Below are positions 1,950-22,009 of a DNA stretch of 22,009 nt, one piece after another. Source of the stretch: a virus; the IMG/VR virus record IMGVR_UViG_3300010354_000772, positions 1-22,009 of that record; one strand, 5' to 3'. The notes beneath the pieces were generated by a model. The model was not told where the DNA came from and made no database searches. It saw nothing but the letters and a program-made list of their open reading frames with translations. Both the position numbers and the translations under genes were made by a program. Every line of letters begins with the position of its first letter. Position 1 is the first letter of the stretch.

Positions 1950-2005
1950 CACCTTTTTGACCCCTTTTCTCGCTACCGTAAAGCACCGTTTTTAATGTTT
2001 CTCGC

Positions 2006-2011
2006 TAAATA
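2006..2011 (+). promoter_or_regulatory. T4-type late promoter core with leader, sheath gene
   Basis: The element is GCTAAATA, 33 bases before the ATG at 2045. Initiation about six bases downstream would leave a leader of roughly 28 bases. This leader contains AGGAGA at 2032-2037, a Shine-Dalgarno sequence at normal spacing. This is unlike the leaderless genes. Confidence 0.65.
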
Positions 2012-5578: not shown

Positions 5579-5582
5579 TTGA

Positions 5583-5588
5583 TAAATA
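5583..5588 (+). promoter_or_regulatory. T4-type late promoter core with leader, tube gene
   Basis: GATAAATA ends 20 bases before the ATG at 5609. A Shine-Dalgarno GGAG (5597-5600) lies eight bases from the start, so the tube message has a short leader. Confidence 0.6.
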
Positions 5589-6294: not shown

Positions 6295-6300
6295 TATGGC

Positions 6301-6306
6301 TAAATA
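6301..6306 (+). promoter_or_regulatory. T4-type late promoter core, leaderless spacing
   Basis: GCTAAATA-TTTGT-ATG: the core is five bases from the start at 6312. The strong terminator just upstream leaves no room for another promoter or a Shine-Dalgarno sequence, so this element must serve the gene. Confidence 0.8.
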
Positions 6307-6311
6307 TTTGT

Positions 6312-7394
6312 ATGGCCAATAAGTTTACTCGTTTTATCAACAGCCTTCCCGGCGGTCCAAAGGGTGTCGTAAGTAATTTTCGTCACGCCGAACGGATTTT
6401 TGTAGACAACTATTACAGATTATCACCTAGAACCAAATTTCTTTATTATGTGGTTTTAAGGGGAGCTGATAAAGAAGTATCGCTATTAGTTAAATCTGCT
6501 GATCTTCCAAAATATTCATTTCAAAGTGTTACAAAAAATGTTTATAATAGAACCAAACATGTCTATAAAATGATGAACTATGAACCTTTGACATTTACCT
6601 TTCACGACGACAACGAAGGTTTAGTAAATCAAATGTGGAACGAGTATTACAGCTATTACAGCGACGATCCAGGCGGCAGTCAAGGTAATCATCCTAACGG
6701 TCTTGACAAATATTTTAGTAGTTACGGCATGGGATTTCCAACCGACGAAAATTATTTTAAGAAAATTAGTCTTTATACGATGAGTAGACAACGTTTTAAC
6801 GGCTACGAACTTATTGCCCCTAGAATAAAAACTTGGAATCATACTAATTTAGATTATACCTCTAATGAACCAGCTGATCATACTATGACTATAGATTACG
6901 AAGCTGTAGTGTATAGTACTGGTCGTGTTACCTATGGTAGTCCGGATGGGTTTGCAACTCTTTCATACGATGTCGTCCCTAGCCCAAATACAGTTGGCGG
7001 AGGAGGTTTAAGAGGATTAGCAAATGCATTAGGTGCCGGTGTCGTGGGTGACATTGAATCAATATTTGGACCAATATCTAAAGACAGAATTAAAAAACGC
7101 CCCGGAGAATTTATTTCGGCTGCTATAAAATCTGTGAACACCTATAGAAATTTAACTCCCGGAGGAAGAGATCCCCTTAGCGGTATTGTAGGAGAATTAA
7201 AAAATCCAAATGTGCAGTCAAGTATTGCTAACGCAATAGGTGGAGTCATAGGTGCTAAATTTCCTAAAGTTGGAAACGCACTTGGTGCAGCCGCTGCTAC
7301 AGCAGCCGTAGGTAAATTATTACAAGCTCCTTCGTCGGTCAAATCTTTCGCACAATCGTCGGGCAACGCTAAAAAGCCACCTAAATTTCCATGA
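6312..7394 (+). CDS. Tail-tube-fold protein, probable baseplate tube initiator or cap (gp48/gp54-like)
   Basis: This 360-residue protein has an N-terminal domain (about 25-215) of the gp19/gp48/gp54 tube-fold type. Its markers are 'SPRTKFLYYVVLRG', 'LLVKSADLPKYSFQSVTKNVYNR', 'MMNYEPLTFTFHDDNEGLVNQMWNEYYSYYS' and 'MTIDYEAVVYSTGRVTYGSP'. Similar proteins in aquatic T4-like phages also combine this domain with a low-complexity tail. The C-terminal third (about 225-360) is Gly/Ala-rich with 'GVIGAKFPKVGNALGAAAATAAVGKLLQ', which could be a flexible or amphipathic segment. In T4, gp48 and gp54 nucleate the tube on the baseplate; which of them this matches, if either, cannot be told here. It starts at a leaderless late promoter. 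It overlaps the next gene by four bases (ATGA), so the two are likely translationally coupled. Confidence 0.7.
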   Translation: MANKFTRFINSLPGGPKGVVSNFRHAERIFVDNYYRLSPRTKFLYYVVLRGADKEVSLLVKSADLPKYSFQSVTKNVYNRTKHVYKMMNYEPLTFTFHDDNEGLVNQMWNEYYSYYSDDPGGSQGNHPNGLDKYFSSYGMGFPTDENYFKKISLYTMSRQRFNGYELIAPRIKTWNHTNLDYTSNEPADHTMTIDYEAVVYSTGRVTYGSPDGFATLSYDVVPSPNTVGGGGLRGLANALGAGVVGDIESIFGPISKDRIKKRPGEFISAAIKSVNTYRNLTPGGRDPLSGIVGELKNPNVQSSIANAIGGVIGAKFPKVGNALGAAAATAAVGKLLQAPSSVKSFAQSSGNAKKPPKFP

Positions 7395-7771: not shown

Positions 7772-8211
7772 TGGCAAAATTTGCTCAGGGAAAATTTGAA
7801 ATGAAAAACCCTGACAAATATGTAGGGAAGAAAATACCTTTGGCTCGTAGTTCTTGGGAATTCATTTTTATGCGTATGCTTGATGAGCATCCGGGTGTTC
7901 AAAATTGGGCTAGCGAAAGTATACAGATACCTTATAGAGATCCTCTTACCGGTAGACAAACTATATATGTTCCAGATTTCTTTATTGTTTATGTAGATAA
8001 AAATCAAGGTAAACATGCTGAAGTAGTGGAAGTAAAACCAAGTAATCAAACCCTTAGAGAAGCGGTCGGTAAAAGTCGATACAATCAAGAACAGTACGTC
8101 CGTAATCTTGCCAAATGGGAAGCAGCCAATGCCTGGTGTAAACAACAAGGCATACGTTTTAGAGTAGTTAACGAATCTGACATTTTTCACACCGGAGCCA
8201 AGCGTAGATAA
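7771..8211 (+). CDS. 4: Head completion nuclease gp4 (T4 gp4/gp50 family)
   Basis: This 146-residue protein matches the T4 gp4 head completion protein, thought to trim or protect the DNA end when the filled head is closed. The PD-(D/E)xK-like residues are visible: E30 in 'ARSSWEFIFMRMLD', D69 in 'IYVPDFFIVY', and E87/K89 in 'EVVEVKPSNQT'. This agrees with a TnsA-like endonuclease fold. The end, 'WCKQQGIRFRVVNESDIF', is also typical. Length is close to T4 gp4 (150 residues). It is coupled to the upstream small protein by a TAATG overlap. Confidence 0.85.
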   Translation: MAKFAQGKFEMKNPDKYVGKKIPLARSSWEFIFMRMLDEHPGVQNWASESIQIPYRDPLTGRQTIYVPDFFIVYVDKNQGKHAEVVEVKPSNQTLREAVGKSRYNQEQYVRNLAKWEAANAWCKQQGIRFRVVNESDIFHTGAKRR

Positions 8212-8214
8212 GTA
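8209..8214 (+). promoter_or_regulatory. Variant late promoter core TAAGTA with leaderless spacing
   Basis: TAAGTA-TTTCT-ATG: one base differs from TAAATA, but the five-base spacing to the start at 8220 is the same and the spacer ends in T, as at most other sites. It overlaps the gp4 stop codon. It is weaker evidence than the exact matches. Confidence 0.4.
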
Positions 8215-8219
8215 TTTCT

Positions 8220-8846
8220 ATGTTTTTAATAGAGAAAAAGAATCTTGGTAATTTTCCTTTGGTGGAAGGAAAAATCCTACCTGATCACCTAGATCAAGTT
8301 TATTGGGAGATACTCAACCAGCGCCATGAAATATATCAAGGTTGTTTGGATGATCCAGATTTTGATTATATCGATGCTGTTTGGTCATCTCTAAATTACA
8401 ATGCTGTTGATAAATTTCCAAAACTTGATTTTTTACTGCCTGCTCTTAAAGAAAGTCTACAATTATTAAATGATGATATAGATCAATATTTTTTAAAGAG
8501 TTGGATAAACATATGGCCAGAAGGACAAAGCATAGGTTACCATACACATTATGGTACATGGCACGGATATTATGTTATAAAAGACACAGGGACAACAACT
8601 TATTATTTTCCCAACGGATCAAAAGAACCTGTGGGTCTTGAAAATTTCGATGGACATTTTGTCTGCACAAGCTCTAAAGTTCCTCATTTAGCACAAGTTA
8701 ACAAGAGTAAAACAATTAGAATGAGTCTCGGTTTTAATATTGCTACCTGGGACGAAATTTTAAGAGAAGAACGTAATAGTGTTGATTTGCCCAACATTAA
8801 AATTCGTGAATCTACAAGAGCTTTACGCGATTATTTTCATGATTAA
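8220..8846 (+). CDS. Putative Fe(II)/2-oxoglutarate oxygenase-like protein
   Basis: This 208-residue protein has a C-terminal double-stranded beta-helix look. 'IGYHTHYGTWHGYYVI' at 105-120 supplies the first metal-site histidines (H108, H110, with H115 near). 'TTTYYFPNG' follows, then 'SSKVPHLAQVNKSKTIRMSLGFNI' at 151-174 gives the distal H156 and R167, the usual 2-oxoglutarate anchor position. The metal motif reads H-x-H rather than the classical H-x-D/E, so catalysis is uncertain and a plain cupin is an alternative. The substrate is unknown; phage proteins of this kind have been proposed to modify proteins or nucleotides. It follows gp4 by eight bases and overlaps the next, also oxygenase-like, gene by eight bases. 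Confidence 0.6.
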   Translation: MFLIEKKNLGNFPLVEGKILPDHLDQVYWEILNQRHEIYQGCLDDPDFDYIDAVWSSLNYNAVDKFPKLDFLLPALKESLQLLNDDIDQYFLKSWINIWPEGQSIGYHTHYGTWHGYYVIKDTGTTTYYFPNGSKEPVGLENFDGHFVCTSSKVPHLAQVNKSKTIRMSLGFNIATWDEILREERNSVDLPNIKIRESTRALRDYFHD

Positions 8847-9330: not shown

Positions 9331-9819
9331 ATGACTAAGAAATTAGAAGAATTGTTTAATTTAGAGGAAAAGGACAAAGCTCATGTGCCTAAAGCACTAA
9401 ATGAAGAGATTGTTCAAAAAGCCAGAGAAGTTAAAAGTCTAGATGAATCTATGCAAGCAGTGAACCAAATTACTCAAAGCTTGCCACATATCAATGAGTT
9501 GAACGATCTAAACGATCAAGAATTAGACGCTCTAGCTGTAAAAGCGGAAAAAGCTTATGACGACTTAATGGATCTTGGCATGAATGTCGAAGTGCGTTAT
9601 AGCGGACGTATTTTTGAAGTGGCCGCTAGCATGATGGGACATGCTATTACCGCTAAATCTAATAAAATTGAAAAGAAGTTAAAGGCCGTAGATTTGCAGT
9701 TGAAAAAGCTTAAAATTGATAACGATGCAGGTGTAGATCCTAATAATGTTATTAACGGACAGGGCTATGTTATTACAGATAGAAACGAGCTCCTGAAAAA
9801 ACTGGGAGGAAAGGTATAA
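9331..9819 (+). CDS. 16: Small terminase subunit gp16
   Basis: This 162-residue protein is predicted to be the DNA-recognition/regulatory subunit of the packaging motor, forming an oligomeric ring that stimulates gp17. The diagnostic part is 'SGRIFEVAASMMGHAITAKSNKIEKKLKAVDLQLKKLKID' (residues about 90-130), a long helix pair typical of T4-like gp16. The N-terminal 'TKKLEELFNLE' is also familiar from related phages. Charged residues are frequent, as expected for a coiled-coil assembly. No clear Shine-Dalgarno sequence precedes the ATG, apart from a weak TTGGAAAT. gp17 does not follow directly; two other genes lie between, which is not the T4 arrangement. Confidence 0.8.
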   Translation: MTKKLEELFNLEEKDKAHVPKALNEEIVQKAREVKSLDESMQAVNQITQSLPHINELNDLNDQELDALAVKAEKAYDDLMDLGMNVEVRYSGRIFEVAASMMGHAITAKSNKIEKKLKAVDLQLKKLKIDNDAGVDPNNVINGQGYVITDRNELLKKLGGKV

Positions 9820-9822
9820 ATA
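9815..9822 (+). promoter_or_regulatory. Full TATAAATA late promoter, leaderless spacing
   Basis: TATAAATA-TAGCT-ATG matches the complete T4 late consensus and sits five bases before the start at 9828. It overlaps the gp16 stop codon. Confidence 0.85.
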
Positions 9823-9827
9823 TAGCT

Positions 9828-10397
9828 ATGAAGACTCTAAAAGAATATCTTGCTGAAAGCAAGAAAGTATATAACTTTAAAATTAAGGTTGCTGGAGATT
9901 TGCCAGAATCTTTTCAGGATAATTTAAAGCAATCCTTAGACCGCTGTAAAGTTGTAAAACTAGAAAAAATTAAAAGCACCCCAATACAAGCACTACCTCT
10001 AGATTTTCCTACTATGAAAAACGTAGAGGTCCACATGTTTGAAGTTATTTGTGAGTATCCTATTACAGCACCCGAAATAGCAAGTGATGTTAAGTCTTTA
10101 GGCTTACGCGAAGAATGTTTTAGGGTTAGAGGCAGTAGTGAGCCTAGCGAAATTGATCAGGAAACCAAGGGGGAAATTCTTAATCCTGAAGGATTATTGA
10201 ATGATAGTCAGTACAAAGAATCAGCAAACGCAAAACATAAAGATTATTTTGGAGACGATTTTAACAAGGCATTTCTAAAAGACTTAGAAAAATCAGCAAA
10301 ACAACGTAAAAAAGATCAAACAGGGCCAACTGAATACAAGCTGCCCAAGGCCAAGGAAGATAAAATAGGTCTTAAAAGCGCCGTGGGGAGTAAGTAA
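9828..10397 (+). CDS. Probable capsid-targeted internal protein with T4-like targeting peptide
   Basis: This 189-residue protein begins MKTLKEYLAES. The first ten residues align with the T4 capsid-targeting sequence MKTYQEFIAE, found on Alt and on internal proteins IPI-IPIII and removed by the gp21 prohead protease after an (L/I)-x-E site. Here L8-A9-E10 fits that site. I therefore predict packaging in the prohead core and cleavage after E10. The rest has an alpha/beta part (about 15-105) and a highly charged Lys/Asp/Glu-rich tail (about 120-189). No enzyme motif is visible. It is expressed from a perfect late promoter and is immediately followed by an acidic protein gene. Its alternative is a minor head or packaging accessory protein. 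Confidence 0.65.
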   Translation: MKTLKEYLAESKKVYNFKIKVAGDLPESFQDNLKQSLDRCKVVKLEKIKSTPIQALPLDFPTMKNVEVHMFEVICEYPITAPEIASDVKSLGLREECFRVRGSSEPSEIDQETKGEILNPEGLLNDSQYKESANAKHKDYFGDDFNKAFLKDLEKSAKQRKKDQTGPTEYKLPKAKEDKIGLKSAVGSK

Positions 10398-11153: not shown

Positions 11154-11156
11154 GGT

Positions 11157-11162
11157 TAAATA
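11157..11162 (+). promoter_or_regulatory. T4-type late promoter core, leaderless spacing
   Basis: GTTAAATA-ATTGC-ATG: the core is five bases before the start at 11168 and three bases after the terminator's T-run, so no leader or Shine-Dalgarno sequence is possible. Confidence 0.8.
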
Positions 11163-11167
11163 ATTGC

Positions 11168-12754
11168 ATGGGAAAAAGTCTTGACGGCGTATTGATTAAA
11201 AAAGCTCATGCGCCACAACGTTATACTCTAGAAGAGGTTAAGCATCTAGAGGCTTGCATGGATCCATTAACGGGTCCATTATATTTCTGCAGAAATTTTT
11301 TAAAAATACAACATCCTGTTAAAGGCTCTATTCCTTTTGAGCCTTATGGCTACCAGGTAGGATTAATTGAGTCCTACACAAAACACAAACAATGCGTAGC
11401 TATGTTACCTCGACAGATGGGAAAAACTACTTGTGCAGTAGGTTATCTACTATGGTACACACAATTTGTGTCTGATGCACAAGTATTGATTGCTGCGCAC
11501 AAATATGATGGTGCTAAAGATATCATGGATCGATATCGTTTTGCTTATGAAAACCTTCCAGACTTTATTCGTGCAGGTGTCATAACCTATAATAGAAACA
11601 CAATTGAATACGACAACGGAGCTAGGATACAAGCCACAACAACTACGGAAAATACCGGTCGTGGTAAATCACTATCTTTAATTTACTGTGACGAGTTTGC
11701 GTTTGTCCAACCCCCAGAAAAAGCTAAGGAATTTTGGACAGCATTATCTCCAACTTTGGCCACAGGTGGTAAGTGTATTATTACCAGCACACCAAACTCG
11801 GACGAAGATCAGTTTGCTTTAATTTGGACAGAAGCCAATAAGAAATTTGATGAATACGGTAACGAAGCTGAACTCGGACAAAATGGCTTCTTTCCTTATT
11901 TTGCTCATTGGTCAGAACACCCAGATCGAGATGAGAATTGGGCCCGAGTAGAACAAGCCAAAATAGGTGAGGAGAGATTTCGTAGAGAATTTGAATGCGA
12001 ATTCTTAATTTTTGACGAAACTCTAATTAATTCAGTTAAGCTAGCTGAATTAGAAGGTAGAGATCCCGTAATGACCATGGGACAAACACGTTGGTATAAA
12101 GAAATTGATCCTCGCTGCACTTATTTGGTGGCATTAGATCCTAGCTTAGGTACAGGCGGAGATTATGGGGCAATACAAATTTTTGAAATGCCTAGCATGA
12201 CTCAAGTTGGGGAATGGAGGCATAATTTAACTCCCGTACAATCACAAGTTAAAATTATGCGTGAAATATTAAGATATATTCATGATAGAGGACAAGAACA
12301 CGGTGCGGCTCCTCAAATCTATTACAGCGTTGAAAATAATACATTAGGTGAAGCTGCACTAGTAGTAATTAATAATATAGGCGAAGAAAACTTTCCAGGT
12401 TTATTTTTAAGCGAACCAATACGTAAAGGCCATATCCGCAAGTTCCGTAAAGGCTTCAATACTACTCATAGAACTAAAATATCTGCTTGCAGTCAACTAA
12501 AATATATGTTGGAGCAGAAAAAAATGACAATAAGCAGCAAGCCATTGATAAGCGAATTAAAAACATTTGTGGCTAACGGCGTAGGGTTTGGCGCAAAAAC
12601 AGGAGAACACGACGACCTTGTTTCTAGTTGTTTATTAATCATTCGTATGGCGGGCATCCTAAGCGATTGGGATCCAAAAATCTACGAAAAAATGACCGAA
12701 AAGCTTACTGAAGACCAACTGCCTATGCCTATATTTGTAAGCAGTGGATATTGA
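11168..12754 (+). CDS. 17: Large terminase subunit gp17 (packaging ATPase and nuclease)
   Basis: This 528-residue protein is the DNA packaging motor and headful nuclease. The ATPase domain shows Walker A at 81-88 (PRQMGKTT, K86), Walker B at 171-176 (LIYCDE, with E176 as catalytic glutamate), and the coupling motif 'TSTPN' at 206-210. The nuclease domain shows the RNase-H-type acidic triad: D324 in 'LVALDPSLGTGGDYG', E389 in 'YYSVENNTLGE', and D482/D483 in 'GEHDDLVSSCLL'. T4 gp17 is 610 residues; the shorter length here reflects a reduced N-terminus. Start and promoter are tightly defined. The next gene begins 11 bases downstream behind its own late promoter core, which overlaps the terminase stop codon region. 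Confidence 0.95.
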   Translation: MGKSLDGVLIKKAHAPQRYTLEEVKHLEACMDPLTGPLYFCRNFLKIQHPVKGSIPFEPYGYQVGLIESYTKHKQCVAMLPRQMGKTTCAVGYLLWYTQFVSDAQVLIAAHKYDGAKDIMDRYRFAYENLPDFIRAGVITYNRNTIEYDNGARIQATTTTENTGRGKSLSLIYCDEFAFVQPPEKAKEFWTALSPTLATGGKCIITSTPNSDEDQFALIWTEANKKFDEYGNEAELGQNGFFPYFAHWSEHPDRDENWARVEQAKIGEERFRREFECEFLIFDETLINSVKLAELEGRDPVMTMGQTRWYKEIDPRCTYLVALDPSLGTGGDYGAIQIFEMPSMTQVGEWRHNLTPVQSQVKIMREILRYIHDRGQEHGAAPQIYYSVENNTLGEAALVVINNIGEENFPGLFLSEPIRKGHIRKFRKGFNTTHRTKISACSQLKYMLEQKKMTISSKPLISELKTFVANGVGFGAKTGEHDDLVSSCLLIIRMAGILSDWDPKIYEKMTEKLTEDQLPMPIFVSSGY

Positions 12755-12760
12755 TAAATA
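12755..12760 (+). promoter_or_regulatory. T4-type late promoter core, leaderless spacing
   Basis: GATAAATA-TAACT-ATG points to the start at 12766 rather than the TTG at 12751. The core begins on the base after the gp17 stop. Confidence 0.75.
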
Positions 12761-12765
12761 TAACT

Positions 12766-14490
12766 ATGGATGCTACCAACAATATTGCAACTGATTTATT
12801 CTACAAAATTCGCAGTAGATTCACCGGGTTAAAACTGGGTGATGCCAACGGCGCTATTACTATTAATCCAGAAAGCGCACGTTTTTTTGACTTTGATTAT
12901 AAAGACGGAGAAACTGATATTGGTCATGTTAGCATCAGTTTGGCAGAAAATAACAGTATTAAAGTTTATTTTAGTACAGGCATTACAGAATCGATGAATC
13001 CGTTACAAAAACAAAACTGGTACGGATTTCTAAAAGAATTACGATTATTTGCTAAACGCAGATTGATGAGTTTTGACACTAGGGACATTGCCAAAGATAA
13101 TCTAGATCAACGTGATTACGCATTCCTTAGCCAACATAATAAACCGCAAGCACAACCAAATCAAATTATAAAACCCGTTGGAGAAAGTATTATGAGCGAA
13201 AGCGCAATGTATGGTAGCAAAAATGTCAGCTTCCAAAAATTGATGGACACCCGCTTAATTATTAAGCACAGCAAATCAATCATGGATGATACAAATCCAG
13301 GTGCAAGAACAAGAAATATTTCAGCTTTGTTTGTCGAAAATCAAGATGGTGAACGATTCAAATATCCATTTATTCATTTAGCCGGTGCTCGTGCTATGCA
13401 ACGTCACGTTGCTAATGGCGGTTTACCTTACGACGAGATTGGAAAGAGCATTGTAGGCATGAGTGAAGAAATCGCTCAATTAAAAAGTTTTGAATCATAT
13501 GTTGTTCGCAACGATTTAATGAACGCAGTTAACAACGGTATAGTTGAAAAAAGCTCAAAATATCTAAACAAGTTAAGAGAAACTGTTAAGAGTTTGGCCA
13601 AACAAAGTCATTACGAAAATTATAAAACAAATTTTAAACCGATGGAAACATCAGAAGTACCGCAAGAAGTCATAGAACAATTCACTGACCAATTTACAGT
13701 GAGAAATTTTAAAGAAGATGTAAAATCAGTATTTCCAACATTATACAAATTAATGAGAGAAGATGAAATAGGCTATGACGACATAGTCGAAATGACACAG
13801 CCAATGGAAACAGAACAAGCAGAAACAAACCTAGCAGATCCATTTATAAAATTTGAACAATGGGCAATGAGACTAGGCGAAGAAAATTCAATCACTAGCG
13901 AAGATGCTGAAGAGAAATCACAGGCAATTAAAGAATTACAAGAACTAGTTGGTCAACATTTTCCTGCAGGAGTAGATGGTAGCAATGCTATCGAAAGCCT
14001 TAAGGGAATTATTGACGATCCTCAACTATTCATGCAAATTAAAGAAGCAAGTAAGCAAGATCCAGATACCTGTGTTAGAGGCATCGTAAAAGATTGGTTA
14101 GAATCTAATGCACCAGACACACTAGAACAATTAGATTTTGGAGACTTCCAAGAAGAACCAGACGGTGGAGAGATGCCTCCGCAAGAACAGAACACTTCAG
14201 GCGGAGCAGACAGTTCACCGTTAAGTCAAGATAACACAGATGAAAAGTTTGACAAAGAAATGGATCGTAGATTGAATGTAGGTGCTTTAGCAGAATTCCT
14301 ACACAGCTTCTACGATCGTGAAACAGGCACATTCCCTAAAGGTCCAGAAGGTGTTGCTATTATGGTAGGCAAAAAATTTGGTGAACAGGCAGAAATGGTT
14401 GCTCGCAAAATGATCGAAAGAATGGCCCCAACTCAACAAGATCCTACTATGATGGAATTGAGTAGGATTAAAGAGTTAGTTAAATTTTAA
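12766..14490 (+). CDS. Large conserved phage protein of unknown function, probable virion or packaging-associated
   Basis: This 574-residue protein begins MDATNNIATDLFYKIRSR. It is not the portal protein that would be expected near gp17. Visible parts are an N-terminal alpha/beta domain (about 1-130) with 'FFDFDYKDGETDIGHVSISLAEN' and 'SIKVYFSTGI'; a linker with 'KPVGESIMSESAMYGSKN' (about 137-154); a middle domain with 'RTRNISALFVENQDGERFKYPF' and 'HLAGARAMQRHVANGG'; a charged helical stretch (about 265-400); an acidic Gln/Gly/Ser linker (about 460-495); and a C-terminal helix pair (about 500-574). No catalytic motif is clear. I recall similar openings in aquatic T4-like phages, always unassigned. 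It shares the leaderless late promoter of virion genes and lies just after gp17, so a head or head-internal protein is the best guess. Confidence 0.6.
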   Translation: MDATNNIATDLFYKIRSRFTGLKLGDANGAITINPESARFFDFDYKDGETDIGHVSISLAENNSIKVYFSTGITESMNPLQKQNWYGFLKELRLFAKRRLMSFDTRDIAKDNLDQRDYAFLSQHNKPQAQPNQIIKPVGESIMSESAMYGSKNVSFQKLMDTRLIIKHSKSIMDDTNPGARTRNISALFVENQDGERFKYPFIHLAGARAMQRHVANGGLPYDEIGKSIVGMSEEIAQLKSFESYVVRNDLMNAVNNGIVEKSSKYLNKLRETVKSLAKQSHYENYKTNFKPMETSEVPQEVIEQFTDQFTVRNFKEDVKSVFPTLYKLMREDEIGYDDIVEMTQPMETEQAETNLADPFIKFEQWAMRLGEENSITSEDAEEKSQAIKELQELVGQHFPAGVDGSNAIESLKGIIDDPQLFMQIKEASKQDPDTCVRGIVKDWLESNAPDTLEQLDFGDFQEEPDGGEMPPQEQNTSGGADSSPLSQDNTDEKFDKEMDRRLNVGALAEFLHSFYDRETGTFPKGPEGVAIMVGKKFGEQAEMVARKMIERMAPTQQDPTMMELSRIKELVKF

Positions 14491-14584: not shown

Positions 14585-14815
14585 ATGAAACTAGTTGCAA
14601 CTTTAATCGCAAGCATGTTCGCAGTTAGCGCATTTGCCGCTGACCCTGCTAAGAAAGAAGAAAAGAAACCAGAAGCCAAACCAGCTGCAACAGCACCTGT
14701 TGCTCCAGCACCGTCAACTAAGCCTGCTGATAAAAAGGCCGAGCCTGCAAAAAGCGAGGCAGCAAAGCCTGCTGCTAAAGCCGAGGATAAAAAAGCCGAA
14801 GCTGCTAAGAAGTAA
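14585..14815 (+). CDS. Small exported Ala/Lys/Pro-rich protein (Sec signal peptide)
   Basis: This 76-residue protein has a textbook signal peptide: MK, a hydrophobic core 'LVATLIASMFAVSAF', and an A-x-A site with probable cleavage between A18 and A19. The mature 58 residues are low complexity, composed almost only of Ala, Lys, Glu and Pro, and would be an extended, highly charged periplasmic chain. Very similar small exported proteins are common in Burkholderiales and Methylophilales, which suggests capture from such a host. It has a Shine-Dalgarno sequence and a leader hairpin but no late promoter core. Superinfection exclusion, envelope stabilisation or a spanin-like part are all possible; nothing in the sequence decides among these. 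Confidence 0.7.
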   Translation: MKLVATLIASMFAVSAFAADPAKKEEKKPEAKPAATAPVAPAPSTKPADKKAEPAKSEAAKPAAKAEDKKAEAAKK

Positions 14816-18434: not shown

Positions 18435-18890
18435 ATGAATTGGTACGATCGGGTTTCAAAGGATATTTCGGCTATACCTGATGCTGCGGCATATTACGAA
18501 TCAGAATTAATTGCCGCAAAACAAGATACTCGAATTGCAGGTAATATTGAAAAGGCATCAGCATCGATGCCAGGTATTGTTGAAAACCGATTTAACCAAT
18601 TACAGGAAATTGAAGCGATCCTAGAATACTTGAATATTGAATTGCGTAGATTACGAAGTCAACATTTTCGTAAGTATCTTGAAAATTATCAACGAGCTTT
18701 GTCCTCTAGAGACTGTGAAAAGTTTGTAGAGGGTGAAGCCGACGTTGTAGATTTTGAAAAAATCATCAATGATTTTGCTCTGCTACGAAATAAATGGTTA
18801 GGTATAGTCAAAGCATTAGATCAAAAACAATGGCATCTTAGTAATATTGTTAAACTAAGAGTTGCCGGATTAGAAGACGCCACTCTTTAA
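18435..18890 (+). CDS. uvsY: Recombination mediator UvsY
   Basis: This 151-residue protein loads UvsX onto gp32-coated ssDNA. It resembles UvsY proteins of T4-like phages (T4: 137 residues): an all-helical chain with 'ELRRLRSQHFRKYLENYQRALSSRDCEKFVEGEADVVDFEKIINDFALLRNKWLGIVKALDQKQWHLSNIVKLR', quoted here only as a landmark from about residue 71 to 143, split across two long helices. The basic 'RRLRSQHFRKY' patch fits DNA binding. The ATG abuts the previous stop and GAGG gives a Shine-Dalgarno sequence. Confidence 0.85.
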   Translation: MNWYDRVSKDISAIPDAAAYYESELIAAKQDTRIAGNIEKASASMPGIVENRFNQLQEIEAILEYLNIELRRLRSQHFRKYLENYQRALSSRDCEKFVEGEADVVDFEKIINDFALLRNKWLGIVKALDQKQWHLSNIVKLRVAGLEDATL

Positions 18891-18910: not shown

Positions 18911-18918
18911 TATAAATA
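18911..18918 (+). promoter_or_regulatory. Full TATAAATA late promoter, leaderless spacing
   Basis: TATAAATA-AGACT-ATG matches the complete T4 late consensus five bases before 18924. A TATAAT (18898-18903) lies just upstream but has no good -35 partner. Confidence 0.85.
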
Positions 18919-18923
18919 AGACT

Positions 18924-19679
18924 ATGAAAATAGTCTTAGTAACAGGTGGGTTTGATCCCTTACATTCTGGTCACATTGCTTATTTCAAAGCAGCCAGACA
19001 ACTAGGTAATTTATTAGTTGTGGGCATCAATAGTGACAACTGGCTTATACGCAAAAAAGGCAAATTTTTTATGCCCGCCGTCGAACGTAAAGCCATTATT
19101 GAAAACATTTACCAAGTACACAAGGTAATAGAATTTAACGACGACGACAATAGTGCCATCGACGCTATTAATCAAGTAAAAAAAATGTTTCCTAGAGATC
19201 AAATTGTTTTTGCCAATGGCGGCGACAGAAACAAAGATAACATACCCGAAATGATTGTTGAAGATGTGGAATTTGTCTTTGGTGTTGGGGGAGAAGATAA
19301 AAAGAACTCGAGTAGTTGGATATTAGAAGAATGGAAAGCACCTAAAGTTGACCGACCATGGGGGCATTATCGTGTAATTTACCAAAGTGGGGATAATACT
19401 AAAGTTAAAGAATTAGTTGTGAATCCAGGGAAGAGTTTGTCTATGCAACGTCACTCGGAAAGGGCAGAACATTGGTTTGTTGCGGAAGGTAGAGCTACAG
19501 TCTATACTGTCAATGTAAAATCCGACTTTGAAGTTCAAGGAGTGTATGAACAATTTCAACACATACACATACTAAGAACTCAGTGGCACCAGTTAGCCAA
19601 CGAAACTAATGAACCTCTAAAAATTGTAGAAATACAATACGGCAACAATTGTATAGAAGAGGATATAGAAAGAAAATGA
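18924..19679 (+). CDS. Cytidylyltransferase-cupin fusion (sugar-nucleotide related)
   Basis: This 251-residue two-domain protein has an N-terminal nucleotidyltransferase (1 to about 135) with 'VTGGFDPLHSGHIAYFKAA', whose H14-S-G-H17 is the HxGH nucleotide-binding signature, and 'VVGINSDNWLIRKKG', 'ERKAIIENI' and 'FANGGDR' as in HldE/TagD-type enzymes. The C-terminal part (about 138-251) looks like a type II mannose-6-phosphate isomerase/ManC cupin: 'RPWGHYRVI', 'VVNPGKSLSMQRHSERAEHW' with H177 and H183, and 'QWHQLANET'. It probably makes or epimerises a CDP-activated sugar, or links the two steps. It heads the glycan block and its last bases overlap the next ATG. Confidence 0.8.
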   Translation: MKIVLVTGGFDPLHSGHIAYFKAARQLGNLLVVGINSDNWLIRKKGKFFMPAVERKAIIENIYQVHKVIEFNDDDNSAIDAINQVKKMFPRDQIVFANGGDRNKDNIPEMIVEDVEFVFGVGGEDKKNSSSWILEEWKAPKVDRPWGHYRVIYQSGDNTKVKELVVNPGKSLSMQRHSERAEHWFVAEGRATVYTVNVKSDFEVQGVYEQFQHIHILRTQWHQLANETNEPLKIVEIQYGNNCIEEDIERK

Positions 19680-20347
19680 AAGTTTTTGTTGGTTATGATA
19701 TCAGAGAAGATATAGCATATCAAGTATGCGAATATAGTATTAAAAAATATAACGATGAAATAGAAGTCATTCCTTTAAGACAGCGTGATCTAAGAGATGC
19801 AGGGACTTATACTCGTGCTATTGATCCTTTAAGCTCAACAGAATTCACCTTTACTAGATTTCTAGTACCATATCTTTCAGATTATAAAGGTTGGGCGGTT
19901 TTTATAGACTGTGATTTTGTTTTTACAGACGACATTAAAAAATTATTTGATCTAGCTGATCCAAAATATGCTGTAATGGTTGTTAAACATGATTACACTC
20001 CTGGAGAAGGATTAAAAATGGATGGATGTAAACAAATACCTTATCCTAGAAAAAATTGGAGTTCATCTATATTATGGAATTGTGCCCATCCTTCTAACAA
20101 AGTTATTACCCCAGAAATTGTTAATACACAAACAGGCCAATACCTACATAGATTTCAGTGGTTAAATGATGAAGAAATTGGTGAATTACCTCCTGCATGG
20201 AACTGGTTGGCAGGTTGGTACAACGAACCGCAAGACGGGACTCCTAAAGCTATCCATTACACAGAAGGCGGACCATGGTTCAAAGAATACCGTAGATGTC
20301 CTTATCATAAAGTTTGGAAGCAACATCTACGAGAAATGTTAAAATGA
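19676..20347 (+). CDS. Predicted DxD glycosyltransferase
   Basis: This 223-residue protein is probably a GT-A fold glycosyltransferase, similar in layout to GT8-like phage enzymes. 'MKVFVGYDIREDIAYQV' opens the Rossmann-like strand, 'FTRFLVPYLSDYKGWAVFIDCDFVF' carries the D78-C-D80 metal/nucleotide-sugar motif, and 'ELPPAWNWLAGWY' with 'AIHYTEGGPWF' (H194) lies near the C-terminus. The frame is open to 19649 but the ATG at 19676 is taken because it overlaps the upstream stop (ATGA) and follows AAGAGG. The acceptor is unknown: it could be a virion protein, host LPS or DNA. Coupling to the cytidylyltransferase-cupin gene suggests a shared pathway. Confidence 0.75.
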   Translation: MKVFVGYDIREDIAYQVCEYSIKKYNDEIEVIPLRQRDLRDAGTYTRAIDPLSSTEFTFTRFLVPYLSDYKGWAVFIDCDFVFTDDIKKLFDLADPKYAVMVVKHDYTPGEGLKMDGCKQIPYPRKNWSSSILWNCAHPSNKVITPEIVNTQTGQYLHRFQWLNDEEIGELPPAWNWLAGWYNEPQDGTPKAIHYTEGGPWFKEYRRCPYHKVWKQHLREMLK

Positions 20348-21138
20348 TTTTTTTAAGTAAAGACGGCAACGACGAATATATTAACATGTTTGCACAGGGA
20401 TGCAAAACAAGAATAACTTCCACCTTAGATTTTATATACGATCAAAGCAACGAACCGTTGGTATTAAGAGGTATCCTAAAGAAAAAATGGATTAAACAAT
20501 GTTGGAATGATAATAGAACTTTTTACTACATGGATAATGGATATTTTGGAAACGAAAGAACTAATAATAATCCTAATGGTTGGAAATACTGGCATAGAAT
20601 AGTTAAGAATGATTTACAGCATAGCGAAATAATTAAAAGAAAAGATGATCGATTCAAAATATTCAATAAAAAAATTCATCCGTGGAAAAAGGATGGTAAG
20701 AAAATTTTAGTAGCAAAACCAGATGATAAACCTATGAGATTTTATGATCTCGAGTTAGAGAAATGGTTGACCGATACCGTTGAAGAAATTAAGAAACACA
20801 CAGATAGACCTGTGGTTATTAGAGACAGAGCTGCTAAAAGAATAGATAGGATAGCCACCAACACCTTACAGGAAGCCTTAGACGACGATGTATTTGCATT
20901 AGTTACATTTAATAGTGTAGCAGCTACTGAAGCTATTTTTTATGGTATCCCTGCCTTTACTCTTGCCCCCTCAAACGCAGCTAGCCCTGTTAGTTTACAA
21001 GACCTTTCAAAAATAAATCAACCCTATTATGCCGATCAAGATAAGAGATATTCGTGGGCCTGCCATTTAGCCTACGGACAATTTCATATATCTGAACTTA
21101 AAAACGGTAAGGCAATGGAGATATTATTAAATGAGTGA
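20344..21138 (+). CDS. Glycan-related protein, first of two tandem paralogues
   Basis: This 264-residue protein has motifs shared with the next gene: 'FYYMDNGYFGN' (60-70), 'HRIVKNDLQ' (84-92), 'GKKILVAKP' (118-126), 'ALDDDVFALVTFNSVAATEA' (178-197), 'YGIPAFTLAPSNAASPVS' (200-217) and 'LAYGQF'. The 'FNSVAATEAIFYGIPAF' part resembles the nucleotide-sugar-binding region of capsule polysaccharide synthesis and GT-B proteins (family cue: S/T-x-x-x-EA-x-xxGxP). The preferred ATG at 20344 overlaps the glycosyltransferase stop (ATGA); an earlier start would overlap that gene by 34 bases. Reaction and acceptor are unknown. Confidence 0.65.
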   Translation: MIFLSKDGNDEYINMFAQGCKTRITSTLDFIYDQSNEPLVLRGILKKKWIKQCWNDNRTFYYMDNGYFGNERTNNNPNGWKYWHRIVKNDLQHSEIIKRKDDRFKIFNKKIHPWKKDGKKILVAKPDDKPMRFYDLELEKWLTDTVEEIKKHTDRPVVIRDRAAKRIDRIATNTLQEALDDDVFALVTFNSVAATEAIFYGIPAFTLAPSNAASPVSLQDLSKINQPYYADQDKRYSWACHLAYGQFHISELKNGKAMEILLNE

Positions 21139-21922
21139 TTTTGATCAAGAAGAAAAAGTTGAAGAAATGTTTCTAAATTCAACTCCTAAAAAAAATATTT
21201 CAGTTTACAGAGGAGTGGCTAAAAGAAAACATATACATAGGCACTGGAATGAAAAATCAGATTTTTACTATGTAGATACTGGATATTTTGGTAATTTTAA
21301 AAGTCCAGGAAATCCAAATGGCAAAAAACTTTTTCATAGAATAGTTAAAAATGATCTACAAAAACATTGGATTGAAGATTACCCAGAAGATAGATGGAAC
21401 ACATTATGCGAAATGGATCCCCGTCTTCAGTGGAAGGGGTGGAAAAAGAAAGGTAAGAAAATTCTTGTCATTGTACCTAATAGAAAGTCTTGTGTATTCT
21501 ATGGTCACGACATGGAACCATACGACCAAGGGAAAAGGCCATGGTTAGATAATACTATTGATCAAATTAAAAATTTGACCGATATGGAAGTAGTAATTAG
21601 AGAAAAAGGAAGTAGATCTGCTAGACACGAGTATTCAATTTTTGATGCTTTAGATGATGATATTTTCGCAACTGTAGCATTTAATAGCATAGCGGCTTTG
21701 GAATCTGTTGTATACGGTGTGCCGGCTTTTGTATCAGTACCGTGTGCTGCATCGCCATTAGCATCAAATAATCTATCTCAGTTGACTAATCCTTTTTATC
21801 CAAAGGAGTCGCTCATTAAAAAACATTGTGCATCGTTGGCCTACGGACAATTCACTTACGAAGAAATAACAGACGGTACAGCTTGGAGACTTTTAAATAA
21901 TGAAGTTACTGGTAAACGATAA
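21131..21922 (+). CDS. Glycan-related protein, second tandem paralogue
   Basis: This 263-residue protein is a diverged copy of its neighbour. It shares 'FYYVDTGYFGN' (45-55), 'NPNG', 'HRIVKNDLQ', 'GKKILV', 'ALDDDIFATVAFNSIAALES', 'YGVPAF', 'AASPL' and 'LAYGQF'. The N-terminus differs, with an acidic 'DFDQEEKVEEMF' replacing the first copy's start. Conservation is concentrated in the C-terminal half, which should hold the active site. The start overlaps the upstream stop by eight bases, so both copies are cotranslated. Divergence between copies is high, so they probably have different acceptors or donors. Its end overlaps the next ORF. Confidence 0.65.
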   Translation: MSDFDQEEKVEEMFLNSTPKKNISVYRGVAKRKHIHRHWNEKSDFYYVDTGYFGNFKSPGNPNGKKLFHRIVKNDLQKHWIEDYPEDRWNTLCEMDPRLQWKGWKKKGKKILVIVPNRKSCVFYGHDMEPYDQGKRPWLDNTIDQIKNLTDMEVVIREKGSRSARHEYSIFDALDDDIFATVAFNSIAALESVVYGVPAFVSVPCAASPLASNNLSQLTNPFYPKESLIKKHCASLAYGQFTYEEITDGTAWRLLNNEVTGKR

Positions 21923-22009
21923 AGAACTAGCGTATTTCTTAATGTCTTTAATTGATATTAAAGATCATTGCAAACATATTCAAATTAACGAATCAAATGA
22001 TTCACATGC
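21900..22009 (+). CDS. Start of an ORF cut by the window edge
   Basis: ATG at 21900 opens 36 codons to the end of the window, beginning MKLLVNDKELAYFLMSLIDI. It overlaps the second paralogue by 23 bases. A TAAATA ends directly before this ATG with no spacer, so it does not fit the leaderless promoter rule and is probably coincidental. The residue pattern is sensible for a real protein, but only the N-terminus is visible and a later ATG (21942) is possible. Confidence 0.5.
   Translation, partial: MKLLVNDKELAYFLMSLIDIKDHCKHIQINESNDSH

Follow-up and report, generated by a model that had tools for sequence, protein, structure and literature searches.

The late promoters of phage T4 (gp55/gp33/gp45) carry a TATAAATA/TAAATA box and serve structural genes; in T4 and its jumbo relatives a leader with a ribosome-binding site usually follows, a feature that does not itself define the promoter. 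Leaderless mRNAs have been described for bacteria and a number of phages, and a limited literature search yielded no report of T4-type late promoters combined with leaderless starts. Among enzymes, the nearest described counterpart of the protein discussed here is ManC/AlgA (TIGR01479, GMP_PMI), a bifunctional mannose-1-phosphate guanylyltransferase/phosphomannose isomerase (PMI). We analyzed a 22-kb virus record (IMGVR_UViG_3300010354_000772; 22,009 nt in full, hereafter the window), whose sequence marks it as a fragment of an uncultured T4-superfamily myovirus and from which all activities, the acceptor, the transcription start site and the timing proposed below were inferred. The window ends in a glycan block of overlapping genes headed by a fusion of a nucleotidyltransferase (NTase) and a PMI cupin. 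With a probability of about 0.5, this block is a late sugar-making and sugar-transferring operon of a T4-superfamily jumbo phage, transcribed as a leaderless mRNA and using the fusion to supply GDP-mannose. More tentatively, a widespread uncultured clade of such phages may have coupled gp55 late promoters directly to start codons and so maintain a leaderless late regulon beside Shine-Dalgarno genes, leaderless translation being one element of the late switch; one of these operons would use a start-codon hairpin to silence read-through RNA and would feed a late glycan pathway through a non-orthologous PMI/GDP-mannose enzyme that SAR11 also has.

The initial annotation had placed a late promoter before an overlapping run of genes, and our analysis agrees: TATAAATA, a T4-type late promoter box, lies at 18911–18918 (+ strand), at a meaningful distance of 5 nt from the ATG of the fusion. 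The box by itself was dropped as evidence because its frequency in the window equals chance (2 copies vs. 2.25 expected from shuffles); it is the distance to ATG that carries the signal. The same 5-nt gap was found on the + strand before the neck gene (AATAAATA at 180–187, ATG at 193), the second tail tube gene (GCTAAATA at 6299–6306, ATG at 6312), the gene starting at 9828 (the second copy of TATAAATA, at 9815–9822), the terminase gene (GTTAAATA at 11155–11162, ATG at 11168) and a gene for a virion structural protein (GATAAATA at 12753–12760, ATG at 12766). Ordinary T4-like leadered boxes coexist with these in the window: one at 2004–2011 (+) precedes the sheath ATG (2045) by 33 nt, its leader containing AGGAG, and one at 5581–5588 (+) precedes the ATG of the first tail tube gene (5609) by 20 nt, its leader containing CGGAG. 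A 2OG-Fe(II) oxygenase gene (8220–8846) belongs to the 5-nt class, with GATAAGTA at 8207–8214 (+), 5 nt from its ATG.

Across 162 loci, the distance from the end of NNTAAATA to an ATG was 5 nt in 415 cases, 4 nt in 24 and 6 nt in 11. The arrangement TAARTA-N5-ATG was spread over 34 protein families of the uncultured T4-superfamily clade, including neck, tail tube and terminase, and the families with a known function were mostly those of structural or assembly genes. Because counts within a single contig are free of homology inflation, the spacing was tested contig by contig; TAARTA stood 4–6 nt from the ATG of 9 genes in the window and of 13, 29, and 38 genes on three single contigs (P 1e-10 to 3e-23 for the contigs; 3e-12 to 3e-23 with the window included). 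The late box was present in 62 of 80 relatives of the fusion (at 5 nt in 60 and at 6 nt in 2), corresponding to 32 of 42 distinct upstream sequences. The cultured phages T4, PA5oct, Phosso, Atu_ph07, CBB, and P-SSM2 had 0 or 1 close site per 50-kb late region, and 9–23 late boxes at 15–40 nt, many of them with Shine-Dalgarno leaders. A real late promoter at the glycan block is very likely in view of this spacing, and the block is probably switched on late in infection.

The T4 late box spans positions −13 to −6 (PMC1524935), and with this geometry a gap of 5 nt sets +1 on the A of the ATG, which is at 18924 in the fusion. The base at −1 was a pyrimidine in 30 of 31 TAARTA-N5 genes vs. 80 of 172 Shine-Dalgarno genes on the same contigs (p 2e-8); a Y(−1)R(+1) initiator would show this bias, which gives indirect support to a start at the ATG. 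Shine-Dalgarno sequences preceded 1 of 8 genes of the 5-nt class in the window and 0 of 12, 1 of 34, and 2 of 21 on the contigs. The start of the fusion cannot be moved downstream, since its first 17 codons include no alternative start codon and residue 14 already opens the HxGH motif. Like T4, this system combines the box with structural-gene targets and with relatives of the phage sigma factor gp55, which turned up in four of the five related contigs searched and not in the window fragment; it differs in the 5-nt gap between box and ATG and in the predicted lack of a leader and of a Shine-Dalgarno sequence. Host RNA polymerase with a gp55-type sigma factor would initiate at 18924, and the late mRNA of the fusion is likely leaderless, starting on the ATG. 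The product would be a leaderless polycistronic mRNA of the glycan block, the later genes of which may be translated by coupling via their overlaps. Leaderless T4-type late promoters amount to a sharp prediction about 5′ ends. Two related contigs (G002 and G003) showed a second late-box peak 4 nt before the ATG, with a preceding base that was often G and without pyrimidine bias, a feature weighed against counting the 4-nt gap in the 5-nt class.

In T4, hairpins in early RNA hide the starts of late genes such as the lysozyme gene e and I-TevI. A perfect 8-bp hairpin, AAGACTAT-GAAA-ATAGTCTT (18918–18937, + strand), covers the start codon of the fusion; all but two of the eight bases in its 5′ arm precede the predicted +1. 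The fusion follows uvsX-uvsY, and only 33 nt separate it from uvsY (18435–18890), so that the hairpin would be present in read-through RNA and absent from late RNA; the structure may in this way silence the fusion in uvsX-uvsY read-through RNA. The layout would match that of T4 in having a hairpin at the start in read-through RNA and a late promoter that removes its 5′ arm, and would differ in leaving the late RNA entirely leaderless. Relatives had the same hairpin or a different one immediately upstream of the fusion ATG, and strong local structure (z < −2) marked 8 of the 20 distinct contexts of the fusion vs. 3 of 82 from 33 other families (p 7e-5). Predicted accessibility of the AUG speaks against such a role, as it showed no average difference between the fusion and other genes. 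This evidence is suggestive only, and control of fusion expression by the hairpin is a possibility to which we give less than even odds. The upstream version of the structure could be either a hairpin or a DNA dyad/operator. In many relatives (e.g., L002:5662-5677), the late box centers a perfect 16-bp palindrome, GCAGATAAATATCTGC, that ends at the ATG.

The fusion gene itself (18924–19679, + strand) encodes 251 amino acids, and its product corresponds to the nucleotidyltransferase fused to a ManC-type cupin that had been described from the sequence earlier. The N-terminal domain (approximately residues 1–137) matched CTP_transf_like (PF01467; 52.1 bits, cut-off 21), and the C-terminal domain (approximately residues 141–250) matched MannoseP_isomer, a type II PMI cupin (PF01050; 81.7 bits, cut-off 23.6). 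The predicted structure has two confident domains with a poorly predicted stretch (131–137) between them, and the cupin model matched solved phosphomannose isomerases among many other cupins. Invariant in 23 sequences were H14, G16 and H17 of the HxGH motif and, in the cupin, Q175, H177, E182, H222 (which we take to be the metal ligands) and R250 (presumably the catalytic arginine). HSGH and NSSS were conserved, with HRGH in one sequence. The cupin is expected, with good confidence, to have PMI activity.

With ManC/AlgA the fusion shares the C-terminal PMI cupin and the two-step logic of an isomerase and a sugar-1-phosphate NTase in one chain. It differs in that its NTase belongs to the HxGH cytidylyltransferase-like superfamily and not to the NTP_transferase (GT-A-like) family; against TIGR01479 it scored 78.6 bits over profile positions 357–460, the PMI region only, and did not reach the cut-off of 372.95. 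With domain II of RfaE/HldE (TIGR02199) and with TagD (TIGR01518) it shares the NTase superfamily and the HxGH signature, but it has no kinase domain and is joined to a PMI; its scores (63.2 and 47 bits) were under the respective cut-offs of 181.5 and 165.4. The term cytidylyltransferase in the initial annotation names only a broad superfamily, CTP_transf_like; for the activity, a mannose-1-phosphate guanylyltransferase is the better guess.

That guess follows from gene neighborhoods, because in genomes without ManC this NTase adjoins genes for PMI, phosphomannomutase or GDP-mannose 4,6-dehydratase (GMD). In rumen Alphaproteobacteria the unfused NTase lies next to a PMI cupin, a PF03332 phosphomannomutase or GMD, in varying combinations. 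None of 20 genomes with this NTase had a ManC over the cut-off; their matches to the ManC profile covered the PMI end only, except for weak N-terminal matches in three. The substrate of GMD is GDP-mannose, and GMD was found in 10 of the 20 genomes (nine over the cut-off) and as a homologue 5–6 kb from the fusion in five related phage contigs. The best reading is that the fusion is an analogue of ManC with a non-homologous NTase, making GDP-mannose for the transferases, and it looks like an unrecognized alternative route to this compound. Its cupin would isomerize fructose-6-phosphate to mannose-6-phosphate, which a host phosphomutase would turn into mannose-1-phosphate, and from this the HxGH-type NTase would form NDP-mannose, most likely GDP-mannose; the protein would work like ManC/AlgA with an unrelated NTase half. 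For the NTase, activity on mannose-1-phosphate is somewhat favored over the alternatives weighed below. If true, the fusion would fill what looks like a hole in the GDP-mannose pathway of SAR11, SAR86 and rumen Alphaproteobacteria, would assign a testable function to an enzyme that only broad models recognize in either half, and would indicate the sugar donor to be sought on virions of an abundant uncultured phage group.

Relatives of the fusion are encoded in at least 597 IMG/VR stretches. None of 50,697 phage records covered 80% of the full-length fusion, and its halves occur there separately; cultured cyanophages have a stand-alone mannose-6-phosphate isomerase (S-SCSM1) and cytidylyltransferase-like genes, halves that are unfused there and form a single chain in the window. 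The limited literature search found no paper on the fusion. A phage-specific fusion was ruled out by its common occurrence in marine bacteria (SAR11 and SAR86), with further copies in other bacteria. In a tree of sequences picked by similarity to the window, the phage copies formed one clade (99/98). The SAR11 copies (L180–L214) lie in a conserved position beside polA, an MFS transporter gene, a PEP carboxykinase-like gene and a two-component pair, distant from any obvious glycan cluster. Three loci filed under metagenome-assembled genomes (MAGs) of Marinimicrobia, Rhodobacteraceae and Bacteroidetes (L174, L182, and L218) look like phage contigs, with phage-type transferases or phage-structural-like genes surrounding the fusion, and are probable binning errors. 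A second phage group (L017, L023, L031, L049, L061, L073, and others) has the fusion in a different neighborhood, with no adjoining GT8, no late box and an upstream sequence that ends in ATGAGGCGTT.

Downstream of the fusion, the DxD glycosyltransferase of the initial annotation was recovered as a GT8-type protein (19676–20347, + strand; 223 amino acids) that matched Glyco_transf_8 (PF01501; 27.3 bits, cut-off 24.3) and has a DCD motif. It is followed by GT-B protein 1 (20344–21138, +; 264 amino acids) and its paralogue GT-B protein 2 (21131–21922, +; 263 amino acids, 43% identity). The overlaps between the four open reading frames (ORFs) are 4, 4, and 8 nt, and the corrected starts are the ATGs at 18924, 19676, 20344, and 21131; the TTG starts listed for the second and third genes were rejected as upstream extensions, as the ATG starts inside ATGA overlaps fit better. 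No Pfam or NCBIfam match over the cut-off was obtained for either GT-B protein. The AlphaFold model of GT-B protein 1 (pLDDT 94.6) had as its nearest folds in the PDB the retaining Kdo transferases KpsC, KrkA, and WbbB (E 1e-5 to 9e-4), at a TM of approximately 0.4–0.5, an rmsd near 10 and about 10% identity. The earlier description of two GT-B/capsule-like proteins thus fits a predicted GT-B fold nearest to the KpsC type, with no sequence-family match. The HP motif of distant GT-B paralogues is missing from both window copies. Comparison of cluster content in relatives, which had been proposed as a check, placed GT8 next after the fusion in most of those in which the downstream part is present, with 40 GT8 ORFs standing alone. 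In ten ORFs GT8 is fused to the GT-B domain, and the loci have one to five GT-B paralogues each.

Two alternatives concern the promoter and the product of the fusion. TAARTA-N5-ATG might be a translation signal, as A/T-rich context in a host that does not use Shine-Dalgarno sequences, on mRNAs with ordinary leaders; a ribosome signal would likewise keep a fixed distance to the start codon. We consider this improbable, because the motif equals the T4 late box and is found 20–33 nt before Shine-Dalgarno-led tail genes of the window as well, the pyrimidine at −1 fits an initiator, other genes on those contigs use Shine-Dalgarno sequences, and gp55 relatives are present in related contigs. In addition, the late box was missing in 75 of 76 bacterial homologue loci, and the single bacterial locus that has it bears transferases of the phage type and resembles a phage contig within a MAG. 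As to the product, GDP-mannose has several points against it. NTase profile matches place the fusion only at superfamily level; the phage GMD homologues scored 404–413 bits, just below the cut-off of 415, and most related contigs, like the window fragment, lack them; half of the 20 NTase genomes, which are drafts, had no GMD match; and the GT-B proteins resemble users of CMP-Kdo, not of GDP-mannose. The fusion might make a different activated compound, e.g., a donor of the ADP/CDP-heptose-like or CDP-polyol kind, with a cupin that isomerizes a different keto-sugar phosphate and with GMD as an incidental neighbor, in keeping with the CMP-Kdo-like folds and with top NTase profile matches to heptose-1-phosphate adenylyltransferase and glycerol-3-phosphate cytidylyltransferase. 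The sugar phosphate heptose-1-phosphate resembles its mannose counterpart. This seems unlikely, though less so than the translation signal, as all these profile scores are far under their cut-offs and the partner of the NTase, fused or not, is a PMI-type cupin near phosphomannomutase and GMD in genomes without ManC.

For the acceptor, we propose that GT8 and the tandem KpsC-like GT-B proteins build a short glycan, more likely on a phage virion protein than on the host envelope. Hydropathy revealed no membrane segments in the four block proteins of the window, and no flippase, polymerase or lipid-carrier transferase was recognized in the visible part of the block, so that a cytoplasmic acceptor is mildly favored; a virion or other cytoplasmic target is slightly better than an even bet. 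Late remodeling of host lipopolysaccharide or capsule, e.g., against superinfection or re-adsorption to debris, is a less probable alternative that would suit the KpsC-like folds, which are those of capsule/lipopolysaccharide Kdo transferases, and the bacterial homologues in surface-polysaccharide clusters. It is at odds with the lack of membrane segments and of a recognized exporter in the block, and with a late promoter class common to virion genes. Glycosylation of phage DNA bases, rather than of protein or lipid, is a very unlikely third case. The DNA of T4 is glucosylated, and work cited in PMC12619734 describes a diversity of viral glycosyltransferases that modify DNA. No gene of the thymidylate-synthase/dCMP-hydroxymethylase family was found in ten related, incomplete contigs, while T4 and PA5oct gave matches, and late expression would be odd for DNA protection. 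The late-class 2OG-Fe(II) oxygenase (8220–8846, GATAAGTA) and the late glycosyltransferases could act on the same virion protein.

The glycan block does not end at 21922, because a fifth overlapping ORF begins at the ATG at 21900 (21900–22009, + strand), starting with MKLLVNDKELAYFL and leaving the window at its end. The gene in the same place in L016 starts with MNLLLNDKELANFL, a likeness judged by eye, and the block of the closest relative goes on with further transferases and a methyltransferase-looking gene. The phage is a large uncultured bacterial virus, probably a T4-superfamily jumbo phage, and its terminase is closest among cultured phages to those of the jumbo phages PA5oct (54%), Phosso (52%), and Atu_ph07 (48%). 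The moraphages (PMC12619734) are a lineage described differently, and that paper contains no statement on late promoters. Two possible clues to leaderless translation were considered. Ribosomal protein S21 is encoded in two related contigs (G003:33352-33510 and G002:292290-292445) and was rejected as not specific, because PA5oct and Phosso carry it too; no phage IF3 was found in relatives. A short Ala/Lys/Pro-rich protein with a signal-peptide-like start and no family match over the cut-off is encoded at 14585–14815, between the structural genes and ssb. The gene order of the window follows that of PA5oct (neck, dNMP kinase, sheath, tail tubes, head closure, terminase, structural protein, UvsX), with SSB ahead of the recombinase as in CBB.

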